IMG/VR virus record: IMGVR_UViG_3300021247_000197
Span: 1 to 25,198 of that record
DNA: 25,198 nucleotides
Reading direction: 5' to 3' (one strand)
Source of the DNA: a virus
Part shown: positions 7,321-16,556 of the stretch, in pieces
How the letters are laid out: every line of letters starts with the position of its first letter
Position numbering within the stretch: position 1 is the stretch's first letter
Translations under genes and position numbers: made by a program
Notes under the pieces: model-generated
Told to the model about the DNA's origin: nothing
Seen by the model: only the letters and a program-made list of their open reading frames with translations
The model's database searches: none

Positions 7321-7731
7321 ATGGCGCTATTTATAGTACCCCCAGCTAAGCTGCCTTTAGTATGGGCAACAGTTGCACCGTTACTGCAGAAAGCGATTGA
7401 TATAGATCCTGACTTAAATGATATTAAGTTAGTTGAGTATATGGTGCGTACTGGGCAACAACATTTGCTGATATGGGAAGACCCCGATACAAGTGACATT
7501 ACGGGTGCGGCAACAGTTTCAATTGTAGATTACTCCACAGAGCGTGTTGCAGTTGTGAATCTAATGGGCGGTAAAGGCATTGTTAGAGATCACGTGTTTG
7601 AACAAGCTAAAGAGTGGATGCGTTCGATGGGCGCTACTAAAGCGCAATGTATGTGCAGAAGCACACTTGTCCCAATGTATGAAAAGATGGGTATGGAGAA
7701 TACACATCACGTAATGAGGTTAAAACTATGA
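7321..7731 (+). CDS. Small GNAT-type acetyltransferase-like protein
   Basis: A 136-aa protein starting two bases after the preceding stop, with no clear ribosome-binding site. The pattern fits a short GNAT fold. There is an N-terminal helix region, strands HLLIWED and GAATVSIVDYS, then VAVVNLMGGKGIVRDHVFEQA where the acetyl-CoA pyrophosphate loop is expected, a helix AKEWMRSMGATKAQCMC, and the usual ending LVPMYEKMGMENTHHVMRLKL, which resembles the GNAT motif in which a helix ends in YEKxGF. At 136 residues it is at the short end for GNAT enzymes. The stop overlaps the start of the 802-aa protein gene (ATGA), so the two are probably coupled. Small GNAT-like genes among structural genes recur in podophages. 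Substrate and catalytic activity are unknown. Confidence 0.65.
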   Translation: MALFIVPPAKLPLVWATVAPLLQKAIDIDPDLNDIKLVEYMVRTGQQHLLIWEDPDTSDITGAATVSIVDYSTERVAVVNLMGGKGIVRDHVFEQAKEWMRSMGATKAQCMCRSTLVPMYEKMGMENTHHVMRLKL

Positions 7732-10136
7732 GATTCAACAACCGTGCAATGGCACTAGCGGGCATACCTGACCTGCCTATAGAAGCTTTTAAACATGATG
7801 GTGATCGTAAGATTAAACCTCAAGGTGGTGATTCTCCACCCCCACCACCATCGAACACTAGTTCAAACGTTACTCAGACTACGATCCCTGAGTATGCACG
7901 TCCTTACGTTGAAAGACTGCTAGGTAAATCTGAAGCGTATTCAGAAAGCCCATACCAAGCATATGGTGGTGAACGCATAGCTGGTTTTTCTCCTTTGCAG
8001 CAACAAGCGTTTGAAGGCGCTGCTAACTTAGGACCTGCTGAACAATTAGGTACTGCAACACGTATGGCTGGCTATGCTGGTCTTGGTTCTTTGGGTGCAG
8101 GTTCGCAATACGCACAACAAGCTACTAACCCATATGCGACGCAAGCATACATGTCACCGTACATGCAAAACGCTTTAGCTCCACAGCTAAGAGAAGCGGA
8201 ACGTCAGTCTGACATCATGGGACAAAAGAATGCCGCACAAGCTGTAGGTGCAGGTGCATTTGGTGGATCACGTTTTGGTTTACAAGAAGCTGAACGTCAA
8301 CGCAATTTGGGTCAACAACAAGCTGATATATACGGTAGAGGTATGCAGACCGCATACGAGCAAGCAAGACAAGCTCAACAATTTGGTGCCGACTTAGGAC
8401 TGCGTGGTTATGGTCAAGCGCTACAAGGTGCAGGTCAACTAGGTCAGATAGGACAGCAACAGTACAACCAACAACTAGGCGCAATGCAAGCGCAGGGTAT
8501 GGCTGGCGCACAACAGCAGCAGTTGGAACAACAAAAACTTACACAGCAATATCAAGACTACTTAACACAACGTGGCGATCCACAACAGAAGTTGGCGTTC
8601 ATGTCCGACGTGTTGCGTGGTGTACCACTAAGCCAGCAAACACAACAACAGTTTACTGCCGCTCCATCCGCTGCGTCTAACATAGCATCACTTGGTCTGG
8701 GTGCTTATGGTGTATCTCAGTTGATGAAGAAAGAAGGTGGCATTGTTGGTTTAGCTAATGGCGGTATGGTTAGTATGGCTAGCGGTGGTATATCGTCTGG
8801 CGTATCCCCAGAGAAATTGCAAACCATGTTGCGTGGTATGGGCGATGACAAACAAGGTGGTACTGATCAGCTAGCCACAATAGAAGCAAATGCAAACGAT
8901 GCATTAACACTAGCGTTAGTTCAAGAAGAGCGTCGTCGCCGTGAGTTAATTCGTATGGGTGAGATGTTAGGCAAACCACAAAGCGATACTACGGTTAAGG
9001 AAGACATGTTAGCCCAAGCGCTAGGCATAGAAGGAATACCAGTTCCTGATGCTATGTTTGCTGATACTGCAGTAGGTGAACAACCTGAACAAGCTCCACA
9101 ACAAGAGATGGCACGTGGCGGCATAGTTGCATTTAAAAACGCAGGCGCAGTTAAAGCACCAGCAGCATTATCCCCATCACAACAGTTAGCTGCGTTTGAT
9201 CCTAGTGCGGCGATGATGGATACAGGTGATGAGTTTGCTAAAGAACAGGAAGCTGCACTTGCAAGACGAGCAAAGTTTTTGGGTCCAGATACAGTAAGCC
9301 CAGTACTAGCTGAACTACAGCAAGCAACAAACCCTAAGTTAACCGACAGTGATTTAGCAGAGCGTAGAGCAGCAATGGCATTCGAAGCAGCACAGGCTTT
9401 CCAAGCTGCAGGTCCGGGGCAAGTTGCGCCTACGTTCCTACAAGGCTTTGCAGGTGCAGGTAAAGCAGTTGCTAATAAGTCAGCGGAGTACAAGAAGCTT
9501 GATAAAGAAGCTAAGAAAGCAGAGCTTGCGATTAAGCTTGACTCCGCTAAACTTGAAAGAGCAGAGAAGAAAGAAAACTTTGCTTTGTCTGAAGAAATTA
9601 CTCAAAAATTGGCAGCGCAAAAAGCAAAACTTGCTGAGATCAAATTGCAGCAGGCTCATTTCGTTGCACAAGATGCACGTGAAGGTCAGAAGATTGCTGT
9701 GCAAGCAGATGCTAATAAGATTGCTAAGACGACAGACACACGTTACGGAATGCAAGTCATGCTACCACCGCTAATTAGTAAGTTTGTAGCTAAAAATGGT
9801 AGGGAACCCAATGCAGCTGAGTTACAAGAACTACAAGCAACTGCGTTTACTATGTCTGCAAACTTAATGAAACAGTACGCTGGTCAACGTGGTGGTGATC
9901 AGCTTGAAATAAATAGAGCCAAAGAAGGTCGTGAAAAGCTTGACGATTTTAGAGGCACTTCTTCTTACAGAGAACTAAAAAAAGCAGCTAAAGCAAAAGG
10001 CCCTCAAGCTTTACAAGAGTTTGAGCGAAATCTGGAAATTGAATATGGGGTTAGAAGTGGTGGCGGTGGCGGTGGCGGTGGTGGTGGTAGTAGCAACCCA
10101 CGTATCCAATGGGAATCAATCGGCGGCAATAAGTAA
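7728..10136 (+). CDS. Probable internal virion / DNA-ejection protein, Gln/Ala-rich
   Basis: An 802-aa protein whose ATG overlaps the GNAT gene stop by four bases. After a Pro-rich segment (PPPPPSN, about 36-42) comes a conserved-looking block with TIPEYARPYVERLLG, AYGGERIAGFSPLQQQAFEG and YMSPYMQNALAPQLREAERQ. Residues about 140-300 are rich in Gln, Ala and Gly and probably form long helices. Three GGI elements follow (EGGIVGLANGG and MASGGI near 334-358, ARGGIVAFKNAG near 460). A strongly charged Lys/Ala/Glu coiled coil occupies about 585-660. The end is unusual: ten consecutive glycines (778-787), then SSNPRIQWESIGGNK. Membrane-active or tail-lumen ejection proteins of podophages often combine these features. 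No enzymatic motif is seen, and the assignment rests on size, composition and position. Confidence 0.55.
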   Translation: MRFNNRAMALAGIPDLPIEAFKHDGDRKIKPQGGDSPPPPPSNTSSNVTQTTIPEYARPYVERLLGKSEAYSESPYQAYGGERIAGFSPLQQQAFEGAANLGPAEQLGTATRMAGYAGLGSLGAGSQYAQQATNPYATQAYMSPYMQNALAPQLREAERQSDIMGQKNAAQAVGAGAFGGSRFGLQEAERQRNLGQQQADIYGRGMQTAYEQARQAQQFGADLGLRGYGQALQGAGQLGQIGQQQYNQQLGAMQAQGMAGAQQQQLEQQKLTQQYQDYLTQRGDPQQKLAFMSDVLRGVPLSQQTQQQFTAAPSAASNIASLGLGAYGVSQLMKKEGGIVGLANGGMVSMASGGISSGVSPEKLQTMLRGMGDDKQGGTDQLATIEANANDALTLALVQEERRRRELIRMGEMLGKPQSDTTVKEDMLAQALGIEGIPVPDAMFADTAVGEQPEQAPQQEMARGGIVAFKNAGAVKAPAALSPSQQLAAFDPSAAMMDTGDEFAKEQEAALARRAKFLGPDTVSPVLAELQQATNPKLTDSDLAERRAAMAFEAAQAFQAAGPGQVAPTFLQGFAGAGKAVANKSAEYKKLDKEAKKAELAIKLDSAKLERAEKKENFALSEEITQKLAAQKAKLAEIKLQQAHFVAQDAREGQKIAVQADANKIAKTTDTRYGMQVMLPPLISKFVAKNGREPNAAELQELQATAFTMSANLMKQYAGQRGGDQLEINRAKEGREKLDDFRGTSSYRELKKAAKAKGPQALQEFERNLEIEYGVRSGGGGGGGGGGSSNPRIQWESIGGNK

Positions 10137-10145
10137 GAGGTAACT

Positions 10146-13100
10146 ATGCCTTATGATATACAGCTCCCTGACGGTCGCATTGTTGAGGGTATTCCTGACA
10201 GCGTTGATCCTGTAGCTGCCAAAGCCCGCATCCAACAATCGATGCCGGATTTGTTTAAGCAAGAAAAACCAGAAGAGAAGCAATCGTTTCTTCGCTCGGT
10301 TGCTGATATTCCGCTGCAGCTGCAAGCAGACTACACTAACACTATCCGTTCTCAATTAAATACATTTGGTCTGGCTGGTGGCAAAACTGATAAGTTTCTT
10401 AAAGATGTAGCTGAGCATATACAAAGCTTAAAGAGTTCTGGGTCTAAGAAAGATGCGGAAGAAGCAGCTCGCATCATGAAAGAGGCTGAGGATAAAGGTT
10501 TTGGTGATCAACTACTTGCTGCAGGTAAAGCGTTTGCGCAAAACCCACTAGAGAATGTTGCTGGCGCTGTTGGTTCTTTAGTTCCGCAGTTAGTGTTCGG
10601 TCCGTTTGGTAAAGTAGCACAAGCTTTTGGTGGTGGTGCTGCAGGTGCAGGTGCTGTTAAGACTGCTATCTACGACACAGTCAAAGAAGAACTAGCTAAG
10701 AACAAGAAGTTAACTCCTGAACAAGTAGAAGCTCGTGCACAAAAAGCACAAGAGTATTTTGGTGAAAACTGGGACACTATTTCGGGTGGTGTTGCGCTTG
10801 GTGCGCTTGAGGGCATCACCGGTGTTAATCCTGCAATTAACCGAATCATATTTAATAAAGCGACTAAAAGAATCAGCGCAGAAGCAGCAGAGCAAGCCGC
10901 TAAAGGTACGGCTAAAGGTGCTATTGCTAAAGGCGCTGTTAAAGAAGCTACACCTGAATTCTTACAAGGTTCTGAAGAGCAAGTTGCTCAAAACGTTGCG
11001 CTCCAACGTGAAGGTATTGATACGCCTACATTCCGTGGTGCTGTATCACAAGGCGCATTAGAAGGTTTAACCGGTGGTGTTCTAGGCGGCGCTACTGGGC
11101 GAATAGAGTTGGCACAAGCTCGTGCACGTCAACAACAACTTGAACAGATTAACGAAGACTTAGCACAAGGTCCTGCAACGGGTTCTCCTGAGCAACGAGT
11201 ACAACAACTAGCTGCGCAGATACAAAGCCAGACAGGCATGGACGAGAAGTTAGCAATGATGACTGCTATGCAGTTAATCGCCGACGAAGAGAAGTCCACT
11301 GCGGGTAAACAAGTAGAAGCAAGTGAGCCTAAAGGCAAGAAGGGTAAGAAGCAGAAGAAAGCAGACAAAGCCGCTGAAGCTGCTGCAACTAACGTACCTC
11401 CTAACCCAGCGCTGGGTGTTCCGCTATTTGTTTTTGACACACCTGAGGAAGCTCAGAAACGTGTAGCAGTATTACAAGCTAATCGTCCTAACGACCAGAT
11501 TTCTATGTCTGAGATGGATGACGGTAAATTTGCTATATTTGCTAAACCTAAAACTGCAACGGAGACTAGCGATGTCACTACTGCAAATACGCCTAGTGCA
11601 ACAACCCCTAGTGGAACGCCTGACGTTAGCACAGCTGCAGGAAGCGCTGCATTGCCTGCTGTCGGGGGAGGAACCCAACCCGGAATTGAAAATGCCACAC
11701 CTGACCAGACAGGACTGGGAACAAGTAGCGGTGTTACTGGACAACCTGTTGCGGGAGCGGGAGTACAGCCTAGTGCATTAGCACCGTTAGGGCAGCCACA
11801 ACCTGACCAGACTAGTCAGATTACTCCTGACCAGATAGCCGCAGCGCAGCAACAAGAACAACAACGAGTACAGCAAGAGCAACAACGTGCTGAACTACAA
11901 ACGGTACACGACGAAACAACTAAAGCATTCGATGAAGCTAGGGCTGCATATGACTTAGCACGTCAATCTGATGATCCTAAAGCTGTATGGGCAGCTGCTG
12001 ACCAGTATGAAAAGGCTCGTGATGCATTTATCAAATCTAGAAAAGCTTTGGGTATCACAGAAGCCGAACAAGAAGAAATTGAGCCGACCGACCCCGAGGC
12101 AGAAGCAGCCACATCCGCGCTAACTAAAGCTGCAGACAACGTTATTAACATTGATGACGCACGTAAAGAGAAACGTGAAAAAGGTAAAGGCGAACCAGCG
12201 ATTGTGCGTCGTAGTAAAAGAGACGCTGACAAGATGTTGGAATCCGCTATCTCAGGTAAGTCTGGGTTAATCAATGTAATTCAAAAACTGCAAACTGAAC
12301 TAGCCGCTGCAGAAGCTGCATTGCAACCATATGGCGGCGTAAATATAGATCCCGAAGTGCTTAAGCGTCGTGGTGAAACATTAGGTGATCGCCTAACAGC
12401 CGCAGCTAACGAAAGCATAGGCACTTCAGAAATATCCCCCGAAGCTAAACGTGCGCGAGAGGATATGGATATTGCTGACGTTGAAGGTGCATATTTCCAT
12501 TACTTAAACACGCAACGTACTTTAGAAGGCGCATTAAAAAGCTTAGCTGAGTTTGATGTTAACCCACGCTTTGAAGCACACCCTTCTAGGGAAAAAGTGC
12601 ATGCGTTTATGAATTCTTTGCCGAAGCAGCAAGCATTGGCAGCGTATAAGAGTGTCTTAGCTAAAGAAGAAAGTTTAGCTCCTGCCGAAGAACAAATTGC
12701 GCCTAAGAAAGAAGGCCCAGCTCCTACCGTTGCAATTAAGAAACGCCGTAAAGTAGTTATACCGGGTAGAACATCAGCTAAGCGTAAAACACAAACTGTT
12801 ACTAGCACTGCTACGGATGATAGGTTTGAGTCGTACTCTGGACAGTCAGTAGTTAAAGCACTGCAACATATTCAAGCTACAGGTAATGAGTTTGAACGTG
12901 CGTTGGCTACACGCATGCTAGCTAGGGACAACATCGGTTCTATCAAAGACACTACGTTCTATGTAGTCAACCCTACAGACACAAACATAATAGATAACTT
13001 AGGCGAAGACTTCGATACCGCTAATGGTTTATATGTATTGGGCGAAACCAGCAAAGGCGCTAAAGATTTTGTGTTTGTGCGCGGTTCAGGTTTTGGTACA

Positions 13101-16100
13101 CAAGAAGATGCGAATGGCGTTAACAACGTAACTGTACTGCACGAAGCATTACACGCAACAGTAAACAAACGTATCTTGTACGCTATCTATGCTAAGCAAT
13201 ATGGGCTACCAATTGATGAGAACCTAGCTAAGAGCTATGACTCGTTAACCAACCTGCTTGATAGAGCGCAAGATAGAATCAACGCTATGTATACCGAGTC
13301 CAAAGCAAATGGTACTCCGATGCCTGCTTACTTTGGTAGGTTGTCTAGTGGCGGCGCATTTGATGACTTAACTGAGTTTGTTACTTACGGCATGACCGAC
13401 CCTGACATGCAAGCATTCTTGCGTGATGAAGTACAAGGTGTCGAAGCTAAGTCTAACGCTATGGATGGGTTCGTTCGTGCGATCTTGAACATGTTAGGTC
13501 TTGATGCTAGCCACATGTCTGGGCTGCGTGACTTGATTGAGTATACAAATAATATAGCTGCGTCTGTAGAAATAACTCCAACAGAAGCATCGATAGCTAA
13601 AGAGATATTAGACATAGATGAAATTACTAACATCAATGATGTGTCTAAGAAAGTTAAGAAGAAACAAAAGACAGCTGCACAACAGATGGCGGCTATTGAT
13701 CTATCTAATCAAACTAAGTCGTTAGAACAGCTAGGCACGATCAGCAATGCTTTGCGCAACCCGTCTGACATAGGCGACTACATGCGCATTAACTTCAGCA
13801 ACATAAACGAAGGCGCAATGAAAGCTATGCTGGCTGTGTTACCTACTAACGAAGTTGTTAAGATGGGTGTAGATCGTGGCATCGTGTCGTTGCAAGATGT
13901 AGACAATAGCGTTCGTGCTTTGGCTACTACTCGTCTACGTATGCTTAATAAAGTACAAGACGTTGCAGTGCCGTGGATTGGCTTAGACGCAAAGATGCAA
14001 ACTAAGCTTGCTAACGTTATGCACTTAGCCACAATAAATCAGTATGATCCTGCTATACAAAAAGGTGGCAACCCACTGCTAGATGGCATGTATAAGCAGT
14101 TAGATCCAGATGCTAAACAGATATACAAAAACGTACGCGACTTCTATCAGTCTAACTACAACGCATACAAAGTATTACTACAGCAGAACGTTAAAGACTC
14201 TGGCGTTGAAGGTGATGAGAACGATATAAACACACCTAAAGGTAGGCTAGCTGCTACGCTGCGTAATGCATTCGAGAAAGAAAAGACTAAAGGTCCGTAC
14301 TTCCCGTTGATGCGTTATGGTGATTACTGGCTAAGCTTCGGTAAGAAAGACAACCGTGAGTTCTACATGTTTGAGTCCGCAGGGCAAAGAGATTTGTTCT
14401 TGAAGCAGCGCTTGGCTCAGCTCAATAGAAAAGGTGATAAGCGTTCATTTGAGCAAATGGTTGTAGATAAAGATGCTGACATTGGTAACGATGCTAATGG
14501 TATGCGCAAGAAAGTAATTAACTCTAACGAAGGGTTAAAGCAAGTTCTTGAGCTTATAGAGAACACTAAAGACTTAGGCGACGAAGCTACTAAGAAAGAA
14601 ATGAAAGACCGAGTGTATCAGTTGCACTTAATGTCTTTACCTGACCAATCTATACGTAAACAATTTATACATCGTAAAGATAATGGCGTAGCTGGTTTCA
14701 GTGGTGATGCACTGCGTAACTTCATTAACGTTGGCACTCGCATGGCTAGTCAGTTGGCACGGGTTCAACATGGCAATAAGATAACTAACGCTATAAGTGG
14801 TGCAAACGAAGCAATCAAAGGCAACCCAGATAAAGCTAAGTTAGAGAACATAGTTAAGGAAGTGACTACTCGTGCAGAAGCAGAGTTGAACCCACCTATG
14901 TCAGACTCATTAGCAGAGAAGCTAGCTAACACTGCAAACAAAGTATCGTTCTTGTACTTGTTAACTTCTGCTAAGTCCGCTGCTAACCAGATGTTTGGTT
15001 TGATTAACTTTACTATACCTACGCTAGCCGCTAGACATGGTTTGGTTCGTACGCTTAACGAAGCACGTAAATATATGTTCTTGGGCTACGGTCAACTTGG
15101 TGTTAGTAAAGTAGACGCTAAAGGCAATACAACTTGGCATGCTCCATCTATTGCGCTATCTGAACGTGCGCAAAGTGGCCCAGAAAAAATAGCAATCATG
15201 CGCATGCAAGAGCTAGGTATTGCAGACATGACACGTACATATGATTTATATGGTCGTAGAGGCGCACCGTCTGCTACATACAACGACACATGGAATAAAG
15301 TAACAGGGTATATGGGGGCATTATTTCATCACGGTGAACGTCTATCTCGTGAGATTACATTCATGACTTCGTTCCGTCTGTCGTACGAAAAGACTAAAGA
15401 CATAGAAGGTTCGATTCAGCAAGCTATCAAAGATACAAACGAAGCATTGTTTGACTACTCTGGTTGGAATAGACCTCGCGCATTGCGTAGTCCCGGTGTG
15501 CGAGTAATTGCACAGTTTAAACAATTCCCTATGTTCGTTACGTTGTACTTAGCACGTAATGGTTACAACATGATCAAAGCAAACTCTACAGGTAAAGAGC
15601 GTATTGAAGCTGCGACTATGTTGTTTGGGACGCTATTTACTACAGGTTTGATGGCAGGCGCTGCTGGCTCTGTTGGCTTCAGTACTATCATGGGTGTATG
15701 CCAAGCTATACGTAACATGGCACGTGATGATGGTGAAGAGTGGCCTTTAGAAGAAGACGATCTTGAGTTGTGGTTCCGTAACATCTATTTACCTAAAGTA
15801 TGGGGTGACGCTAAGTTTATGGGTATGAACATAGCTGAGTTAATTGATTCCGGTGTACTTAATACTGCTACAGGCTACGATGTTGCATCAGGTATATCGT
15901 TAAACAACATGTGGTTCCATGACACACCTGATGCTATGAACTGGAAAGACGGCTTTGATCGTTTCTTAGTATCGTTGCAAGGTCCTGCTGTAGGTGTAGC
16001 CAAACAAGCATTCTCATCTATAGATGATTTTAATGCTGGGGACAACCTAAAAGGTGCAGAGAAACTTACTCCTGCTTTTGCTAAAGGCGCAGTCACAGCG

Positions 16101-16556
16101 CTTAGATACGCTACTGAAGGTGCGTTAACTAAAGATAAAAACGAACTTAAAGCTAAAGAAGATTTTACTTATGCGCAGTTGTTTGCACAGGCATTGGGTT
16201 ATCGCACCACAGGTTTAGCACAGATCATGAACAACAACTTTGCTATCCAACAACAAGTGCAAAAGTTGGAGCGTACTCGCAAAGACTTGATGACTAAACT
16301 GGACAATGCTATTGAGACAGACAACGATGACTTAATAGATAAAGCAACGGATGAAATAGACGCATTTAGTGATCGCTATCCAACATATCAGATTACTGAT
16401 AAAGATATAGCTAACTCACTGAAAGCCCGTGCGAAACGCGCAGCTAAGACAGAACGTGGTTTATACCTAGACCGTAAAGCAGAAGACTTTGACTACCTAA
16501 TAGACCGTGCTAGACGCACTCTGGAAGAGGAAGAACGAGCAGCTCGAAGTCAATAA
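10146..16556 (+). CDS. Giant internal virion protein (2136 aa) with HExxH metallopeptidase-like domain
   Basis: The start is an ATG with AAGAGG just upstream. The N-terminus MPYDIQLPDGRIVEGIPDSV is a common opening of large phage ejection proteins. Residues 100-320 contain glycine-rich hydrophobic helices, and 325-640 are low-complexity Gln/Ala/Pro/Thr linkers. His999-Glu1000-Ala-Leu-His1003 in VTVLHEALHATV is an HExxH zinc site, and Glu1077 in DDLTEFVTYGMTDP could be the third ligand. Residues 1590-2136 resemble the large polyvalent-protein C-terminal region: FLYLLTSAKSAANQMFGLIN, RVIAQFKQFPMFVTLYLARN near 1786, and a hydrophobic span from about 1825. The probable role is to enter the host envelope at infection and help move DNA inward, as T7 gp16 does. 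No lytic transglycosylase motif was seen. It is the last gene of the + module. Confidence 0.65.
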   Translation: MPYDIQLPDGRIVEGIPDSVDPVAAKARIQQSMPDLFKQEKPEEKQSFLRSVADIPLQLQADYTNTIRSQLNTFGLAGGKTDKFLKDVAEHIQSLKSSGSKKDAEEAARIMKEAEDKGFGDQLLAAGKAFAQNPLENVAGAVGSLVPQLVFGPFGKVAQAFGGGAAGAGAVKTAIYDTVKEELAKNKKLTPEQVEARAQKAQEYFGENWDTISGGVALGALEGITGVNPAINRIIFNKATKRISAEAAEQAAKGTAKGAIAKGAVKEATPEFLQGSEEQVAQNVALQREGIDTPTFRGAVSQGALEGLTGGVLGGATGRIELAQARARQQQLEQINEDLAQGPATGSPEQRVQQLAAQIQSQTGMDEKLAMMTAMQLIADEEKSTAGKQVEASEPKGKKGKKQKKADKAAEAAATNVPPNPALGVPLFVFDTPEEAQKRVAVLQANRPNDQISMSEMDDGKFAIFAKPKTATETSDVTTANTPSATTPSGTPDVSTAAGSAALPAVGGGTQPGIENATPDQTGLGTSSGVTGQPVAGAGVQPSALAPLGQPQPDQTSQITPDQIAAAQQQEQQRVQQEQQRAELQTVHDETTKAFDEARAAYDLARQSDDPKAVWAAADQYEKARDAFIKSRKALGITEAEQEEIEPTDPEAEAATSALTKAADNVINIDDARKEKREKGKGEPAIVRRSKRDADKMLESAISGKSGLINVIQKLQTELAAAEAALQPYGGVNIDPEVLKRRGETLGDRLTAAANESIGTSEISPEAKRAREDMDIADVEGAYFHYLNTQRTLEGALKSLAEFDVNPRFEAHPSREKVHAFMNSLPKQQALAAYKSVLAKEESLAPAEEQIAPKKEGPAPTVAIKKRRKVVIPGRTSAKRKTQTVTSTATDDRFESYSGQSVVKALQHIQATGNEFERALATRMLARDNIGSIKDTTFYVVNPTDTNIIDNLGEDFDTANGLYVLGETSKGAKDFVFVRGSGFGTQEDANGVNNVTVLHEALHATVNKRILYAIYAKQYGLPIDENLAKSYDSLTNLLDRAQDRINAMYTESKANGTPMPAYFGRLSSGGAFDDLTEFVTYGMTDPDMQAFLRDEVQGVEAKSNAMDGFVRAILNMLGLDASHMSGLRDLIEYTNNIAASVEITPTEASIAKEILDIDEITNINDVSKKVKKKQKTAAQQMAAIDLSNQTKSLEQLGTISNALRNPSDIGDYMRINFSNINEGAMKAMLAVLPTNEVVKMGVDRGIVSLQDVDNSVRALATTRLRMLNKVQDVAVPWIGLDAKMQTKLANVMHLATINQYDPAIQKGGNPLLDGMYKQLDPDAKQIYKNVRDFYQSNYNAYKVLLQQNVKDSGVEGDENDINTPKGRLAATLRNAFEKEKTKGPYFPLMRYGDYWLSFGKKDNREFYMFESAGQRDLFLKQRLAQLNRKGDKRSFEQMVVDKDADIGNDANGMRKKVINSNEGLKQVLELIENTKDLGDEATKKEMKDRVYQLHLMSLPDQSIRKQFIHRKDNGVAGFSGDALRNFINVGTRMASQLARVQHGNKITNAISGANEAIKGNPDKAKLENIVKEVTTRAEAELNPPMSDSLAEKLANTANKVSFLYLLTSAKSAANQMFGLINFTIPTLAARHGLVRTLNEARKYMFLGYGQLGVSKVDAKGNTTWHAPSIALSERAQSGPEKIAIMRMQELGIADMTRTYDLYGRRGAPSATYNDTWNKVTGYMGALFHHGERLSREITFMTSFRLSYEKTKDIEGSIQQAIKDTNEALFDYSGWNRPRALRSPGVRVIAQFKQFPMFVTLYLARNGYNMIKANSTGKERIEAATMLFGTLFTTGLMAGAAGSVGFSTIMGVCQAIRNMARDDGEEWPLEEDDLELWFRNIYLPKVWGDAKFMGMNIAELIDSGVLNTATGYDVASGISLNNMWFHDTPDAMNWKDGFDRFLVSLQGPAVGVAKQAFSSIDDFNAGDNLKGAEKLTPAFAKGAVTALRYATEGALTKDKNELKAKEDFTYAQLFAQALGYRTTGLAQIMNNNFAIQQQVQKLERTRKDLMTKLDNAIETDNDDLIDKATDEIDAFSDRYPTYQITDKDIANSLKARAKRAAKTERGLYLDRKAEDFDYLIDRARRTLEEEERAARSQ

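Follow-up and report, generated by a model that had tools for sequence, protein, structure and literature searches.

A polyvalent-protein zincin-like metallopeptidase domain in the giant ejection-type protein of a metagenomic phage

The zincin-like metallopeptidase (MPTase) domain of polyvalent phage proteins was described in 2017 as three strands together with two helices, one bearing HExxH and the other the Glu (Iyer 2017, PMC5512222); its possible roles were set out in the same paper, where its proteolytic activity is predicted only and where phiKMV is not mentioned. The prototype, C1 of the N4 vRNAP (PDB 9pnr/9pnt, residues 2124-2368), has been solved, and the order along the N4 polymerase is a functional part, the zincin and a large C-terminal part (PMC12633501). 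In the tetrameric ejection protein (TEP) of PhiM1 (gp48, PDB 8vb2), the stretch Asp268-Asp528 was named 'endolysin/exotransglycosidase-like' after BLASTP and DALI, and a lysozyme-like domain was placed in a separate octameric protein (PMC11440229). LUZ19/phiKMV gp37, an internal virion protein of 1337 aa (PDB 9sfn chain G), is the product of the last ejection gene, after gp35 and gp36; many phiKMV-like records annotate the gp37-type gene as 'with endolysin domain'.

The window, an IMG/VR virus record of 25,198 bases, showed no megablast match to phages. On its + strand, an open frame at positions 10146-16556 encodes a giant polyvalent/ejection-type protein of 2136 aa, with family matches to LPD39 and PLxRFG, preceded by a gene for an 802-aa protein of the 'DNA ejection protein' family (7728-10136; PHROG 4287, E 1e-12). 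A small GNAT-like gene (7321-7731; weak match to PHROG 1249, E 0.005, and the annotation of phage Parlo) lies directly upstream; in Parlo, an acyltransferase gene is likewise annotated upstream of the giant gene. Elsewhere in the window, a 211-aa ORF (237-872) has a match to a PHROG named DNA endonuclease V (E 1e-35) and weaker ones to 2OG-Fe(II) oxygenase families.

The N-terminal ~880 residues of the giant protein (10146-12785), a fast-turnover 'cargo', have no family match (BLAST, Pfam). They are followed by the domain of interest (~residues 890-1138, 12813-13559, delimited with AlphaFold2, VIA-align and the sequence profile), by LPD39 (large polyvalent protein associated domain 39; residues 1224-1352, 13815-14201; Pfam PF18858, E 1.1e-9) and by the PLxRFG C-terminal module (residues 1383-2113, 14292-16484; NCBIfam NF032893, E 1.6e-113), which tblastn also links to PEp14, Parlo and similar phages. 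Among 56 full-length relatives, chosen by the presence of the zincin domain, residues 1-860 were BLAST-matched in 5 and the part after residue 1200 in 47. The variable parts of different relatives contain ART (ADP-ribosyltransferase), MORN, HATPase-like and other segments (Pfam), and helicase/methylase modules are also combined with the zincin domain; thus, the setting is a large phage protein built of several domains, including LPD or effector ones. In most relatives, as in the window, the zincin domain stands just ahead of the LPD39/PLxRFG part. The giant ORFs of six relatives (L042, L036, L057, L017, L059 and L019) have two to three short tandem copies of aromatic/acidic motifs (for example, FVPLSE, FSFEEA or YTPEELG) near the N-terminus; these motifs, present in many giant proteins, are possibly docking or packaging signals.

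The first-pass annotation had placed an HEALH motif with a downstream glutamate inside the giant protein, and both elements were confirmed. HEALH, with the predicted zinc ligands His999 and His1003 and the predicted general base Glu1000, occupies codons 13140-13154 (residues 999-1003); the predicted third ligand, Glu1077, is encoded by GAG at 13374-13376 within TEFVTYGMTDPD, in the stretch TEFVTYGMTDPDMQ (13371-13412), 74 residues past His1003. The chance expectation for HExxH in a protein of such composition and length is 0.010. To gather relatives, of which L001 (84% identical across the whole protein), L003 and L004, all from IMG/VR, are the nearest, the domain profile was used with the search patterns EF[VY][TA]YGM or DPDM[QK][AL]F, yielding 73 loci. 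Among the IMG/VR relatives, the H, E and H of the motif were present in 65 of 65 extracted motif regions, an unbiased test, and Glu1077 in 66 of 66, although it is partly ascertained in the fetched loci because the search patterns were drawn from its region. The sole record without HExxH (L068) begins at the domain. With the patterns used, no relatives of the domain were found in genome contigs, and no prophage copies were seen.

An alignment of 18 sequences, 12-79% identical to the window, contained only four invariant columns, namely H999, E1000, H1003 and E1077, whereas the spacing between the second histidine and the glutamate varied from 48 to 80 residues. This alignment includes rows not fetched with the Glu-region patterns (LUZ19, phiNV3, Parlo, CP2, Vibrio phi 1, N4 and the Limnohabitans phage) as well as L088, fetched with an HExxH-region pattern; its rows were cut out around HExxH, so that the Glu column is more telling in the distant phage proteins. 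Free variation at the putative ligands is therefore excluded for the sequences compared. Comparison with L001 gave dN/dS of 0.075 in the zincin domain, a rough ratio given that dS there is 1.8, near saturation.

Several other HExxH matches were considered and rejected as members of the family. HEGRHRA in some relatives lies in what we read as a ParB-like context, and HELAHFKVRNHGAEF, also present in some relatives, is a different motif; HERLH of T7 gp16, HEILH of PEp14 and HEFGH of Mel-JY34 have no family match. The T7 motif, at residue 559 (L083), falls in a protein without a profile match to the zincin domain and is probably a chance occurrence. Separately, the giant ORFs of L019, L021, L023, L024 and L029 contain a second, distinct zinc-protease-like motif, IHELAHFKVRNHGAEF, near the C-terminal module, which in L023 is downstream of the HATPase-like stretch. 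In L067 (4554-11387) and in the Vibrio phage phi 1 vRNAP (L093), the zincin domain occurs twice in tandem, with HExxH and Glu in each copy.

Structure prediction and fold comparison agreed with the gluzincin layout and the tie to polyvalent phage proteins that the first-pass annotation had proposed. From 54 sequences, those of the window and the fetched loci, AlphaFold2 predicted the domain with confidence; a model trimmed to residues 889-1141 scored even higher (pLDDT 93.8, pTM 0.91) and is a zincin. In model numbering, strands span 49-53, 73-80 and 83-91, and helices 106-131 (HExxH) and 187-196 (Glu, near the helix start) are separated by a long helix at 137-167, in agreement with the published description of the polyvalent MPTase (PMC5512222), in which HExxH likewise lies on one helix and the glutamate on a following one, both being conserved. 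Both the fold and the conservation agree with a putative convergence of the two histidines and the glutamate on one metal.

In VIA-align, PhiM1 TEP came first (residues 289-516 of the chain; Z 10.2, rmsd 3.3, 149 aligned), followed by N4 vRNAP C1 (Z 9.9, rmsd 4.1, 199 aligned); both rank well above all other rows, and the next ~30 rows are mostly zincins, including lethal factor (Z 5.4), PPEP-1/2/3 (Z ~4), SPRTN and vibriolysin. For a domain made up mostly of helices, a Z of ~10 does not settle the matter by itself; the sequence profiles, however, agree independently, with matches to LUZ19 gp37 (9sfn_G, E 7e-32), PhiM1 gp48 (8vb2_A, E 9e-7) and the N4 vRNAP MPTase (HMM E 6e-9, in a small set). 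Foldseek found a phiKMV-like core protein as the best match in BFVD (E 1.3e-12) but nothing significant in the PDB (best E 0.11 and 0.26), so that the PDB fold evidence comes from VIA-align, with support from the sequence profiles. PDB 9sfn is absent from the structural match lists, conceivably because the entry postdates the structure library, and LUZ19 gp37 is accordingly tied to the window by sequence only. The stretch of 9sfn that served as query is identical to LUZ19 gp37, a protein of the same length (1337 aa) as the deposited chain.

No peptidase family of Pfam or NCBIfam matched the domain above its curated cut-off, and it is not covered by a Pfam model; a scan of 54 members for peptidase families gave only a weak SprT-like match (E 0.023) in one member. 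A recurrent weak ANAPC4 match (E 0.0016, below cut-off), which begins on the helical insert, was taken to reflect chance similarity between helices. Taken together, the conservation, the model and the matches to solved structures and profiles indicate that residues ~890-1138 are, almost certainly, the MPTase predicted for polyvalent phage proteins (PMC5512222). Given that the domain class was already described in 2017, the novelty implied at first is reduced, and the window domain is a new member of that class.

Comparison with individual systems shows what the window protein shares and where it departs. N4 vRNAP C1 has the same fold, with HExxH and the later-helix Glu as in the window, at ~12% identity; in both proteins, the zincin is preceded by a variable functional part and followed by a large C-terminal part, whereas the RNA polymerase is present in N4 only and the PLxRFG C-terminus in the window protein only. 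The lethal-factor/PPEP-type gluzincin proteases (M34-like) share the zincin core and the HExxH...E layout (Z 4-5.4) but are remote, the insert between HExxH and Glu being long in the window domain; in view of the lack of a sequence-family match, we do not file the domain as M34. T7 gp16, like the window protein, is a large last ejection protein of short-tailed phages, but it has an N-terminal transglycosylase, whereas no SLT domain was found in the window protein (Pfam), as the first-pass annotation had noted. T7 gp16 shows no profile match to the zincin domain or to the PLxRFG part, and profiles detected no homology of the PLxRFG part to LUZ19 gp37, T7 gp16 or N4.

The closest comparison bears on the endolysin label. 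The predicted metal-site quartet is kept over the domain in LUZ19/phiKMV gp37, which has no LPD39 or PLxRFG match, whereas the window protein has both. PhiM1 TEP contains LHEAAHA at 384-390 and the conserved HEF, although the YGMT part of the Glu motif is altered compared to the window. Pfam gave no match to lysozyme or SLT families for PhiM1 TEP, LUZ19 gp37 or the window domain. Given these motifs, the profile and fold match to the window domain and the lack of a lysozyme/SLT match, the PhiM1 'endolysin/exotransglycosidase-like' domain appears to be a polyvalent-protein zincin. Thus, in both PhiM1 gp48 (L094:4198-7989) and LUZ19 gp37 (L077:3319-7332), the endolysin-labelled domain appears to be a zincin in which HExxH is followed by a Glu further along the chain. 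A zincin in the phiKMV/PhiM1 ejection proteins is not stated in the literature found, most subscription papers being outside the search.

For this particular phage, we infer the metal, catalysis, timing, substrate and packaging as follows. Zinc would be held by His999 and His1003, which share a helix, together with Glu1077 from a helix further on, and water would be activated by Glu1000. Judging from gene order and from its relatives in LUZ19/phiKMV, PhiM1 and N4, the giant protein is probably carried in the capsid and leaves it before the DNA or together with it. The peptidase would most likely act after ejection, during refolding of the protein in the envelope or cytoplasm, and, as a first guess, would cut between the N-terminal cargo, which varies, and the LPD39/PLxRFG part, which is conserved. 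Peptidase activity of the domain is highly probable, the invariance of the HExxH general-base Glu being an argument for catalysis, and action after ejection is likely. The combined statement, an active zinc gluzincin-type peptidase used after ejection with cargo release as the first guess, is the reading that we favor on balance; a variable N-terminus and a conserved C-terminus flanking the zincin fit such a release.

The same fold and metal site could instead belong to an effector protease whose target is a particular protein of the host, such as a defence factor or a transcription factor. This option, listed in PMC5512222, is compatible with the presence of secreted effector proteases among the structural neighbours and with the joining, in relatives, of the zincin to modules characteristic of injected effectors (ART, helicase/methylase). 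However, the zincin is fixed before LPD39/PLxRFG in most relatives while the cargo changes, which suits a processing role better than the cutting of a host protein, and we consider the effector reading unlikely, albeit a serious competitor. A catalytically inactive domain that would serve the ejectosome structurally or by guiding DNA appears improbable: the loops of the PhiM1 domain were suggested to anchor packaged DNA (PMC11440229) and the N4 work gives C1 no activity (PMC12633501), but the HExxH Glu, which a domain without catalysis would not be expected to need, is kept in the 65 intact motif regions and in the phage relatives.

Maturation of the ejection proteins was among the roles first entertained, and such processing within the head or ahead of packaging has a precedent in the suggestion made for P1 DdrB, a processed head protein (PMC5512222). 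This role is quite improbable considering that N4 vRNAP is reported to be packaged unprocessed (PMC5512222), that PhiM1 TEP was modelled in mature particles as one chain including the zincin domain (PMC11440229) and that LUZ19 gp37 was deposited with the full-length 1337-aa chain sequence. Similarly disfavoured is the proposal that the domain opens the envelope in place of the missing transglycosylase. The window protein does lack an SLT domain and the PhiM1 authors assigned the equivalent domain a cell-wall-cutting role (PMC11440229), but SLT and zincin coexist in one protein in L010, Parlo and the Limnohabitans phage, PhiM1 has its separate lysozyme-like domain in the octameric protein (PMC11440229) and the zincin domain itself matches no muralytic family; we regard this proposal as very improbable. 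An HExxH oxygenase-type metal enzyme, brought to mind by the reference to radical SAM/alpha-KG HExxH enzymes in the N4 structure paper (PMC12633501), is barely conceivable given that, of the enzymes ranked after the phage proteins down to ~rank 35, almost all are zincin peptidases or homologous domains and that an invariant Glu downstream is what gluzincins show.

The analysis links a domain from a metagenomic phage to ejection proteins with solved structures. Its most useful side result is that the ejectosome domain published for PhiM1 as 'endolysin-like' appears to be a zincin, for which the fitting assay is a protease assay rather than a cell-wall assay. A long-standing gap, the role of the HExxH domain of N4 vRNAP and of the phiKMV core protein during DNA entry, thereby becomes testable in model phages. 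Tentatively, and as a conjecture that we hold less firmly than the reading of the window domain itself, phiKMV-like, PhiM1-like, N4-like and PLxRFG podophages may share an ejectosome-borne zinc protease that would be switched on only after ejection and would be needed for DNA delivery or takeover; on that conjecture, the endolysin label would have hidden the shared protease in the phiKMV/PhiM1 branch.
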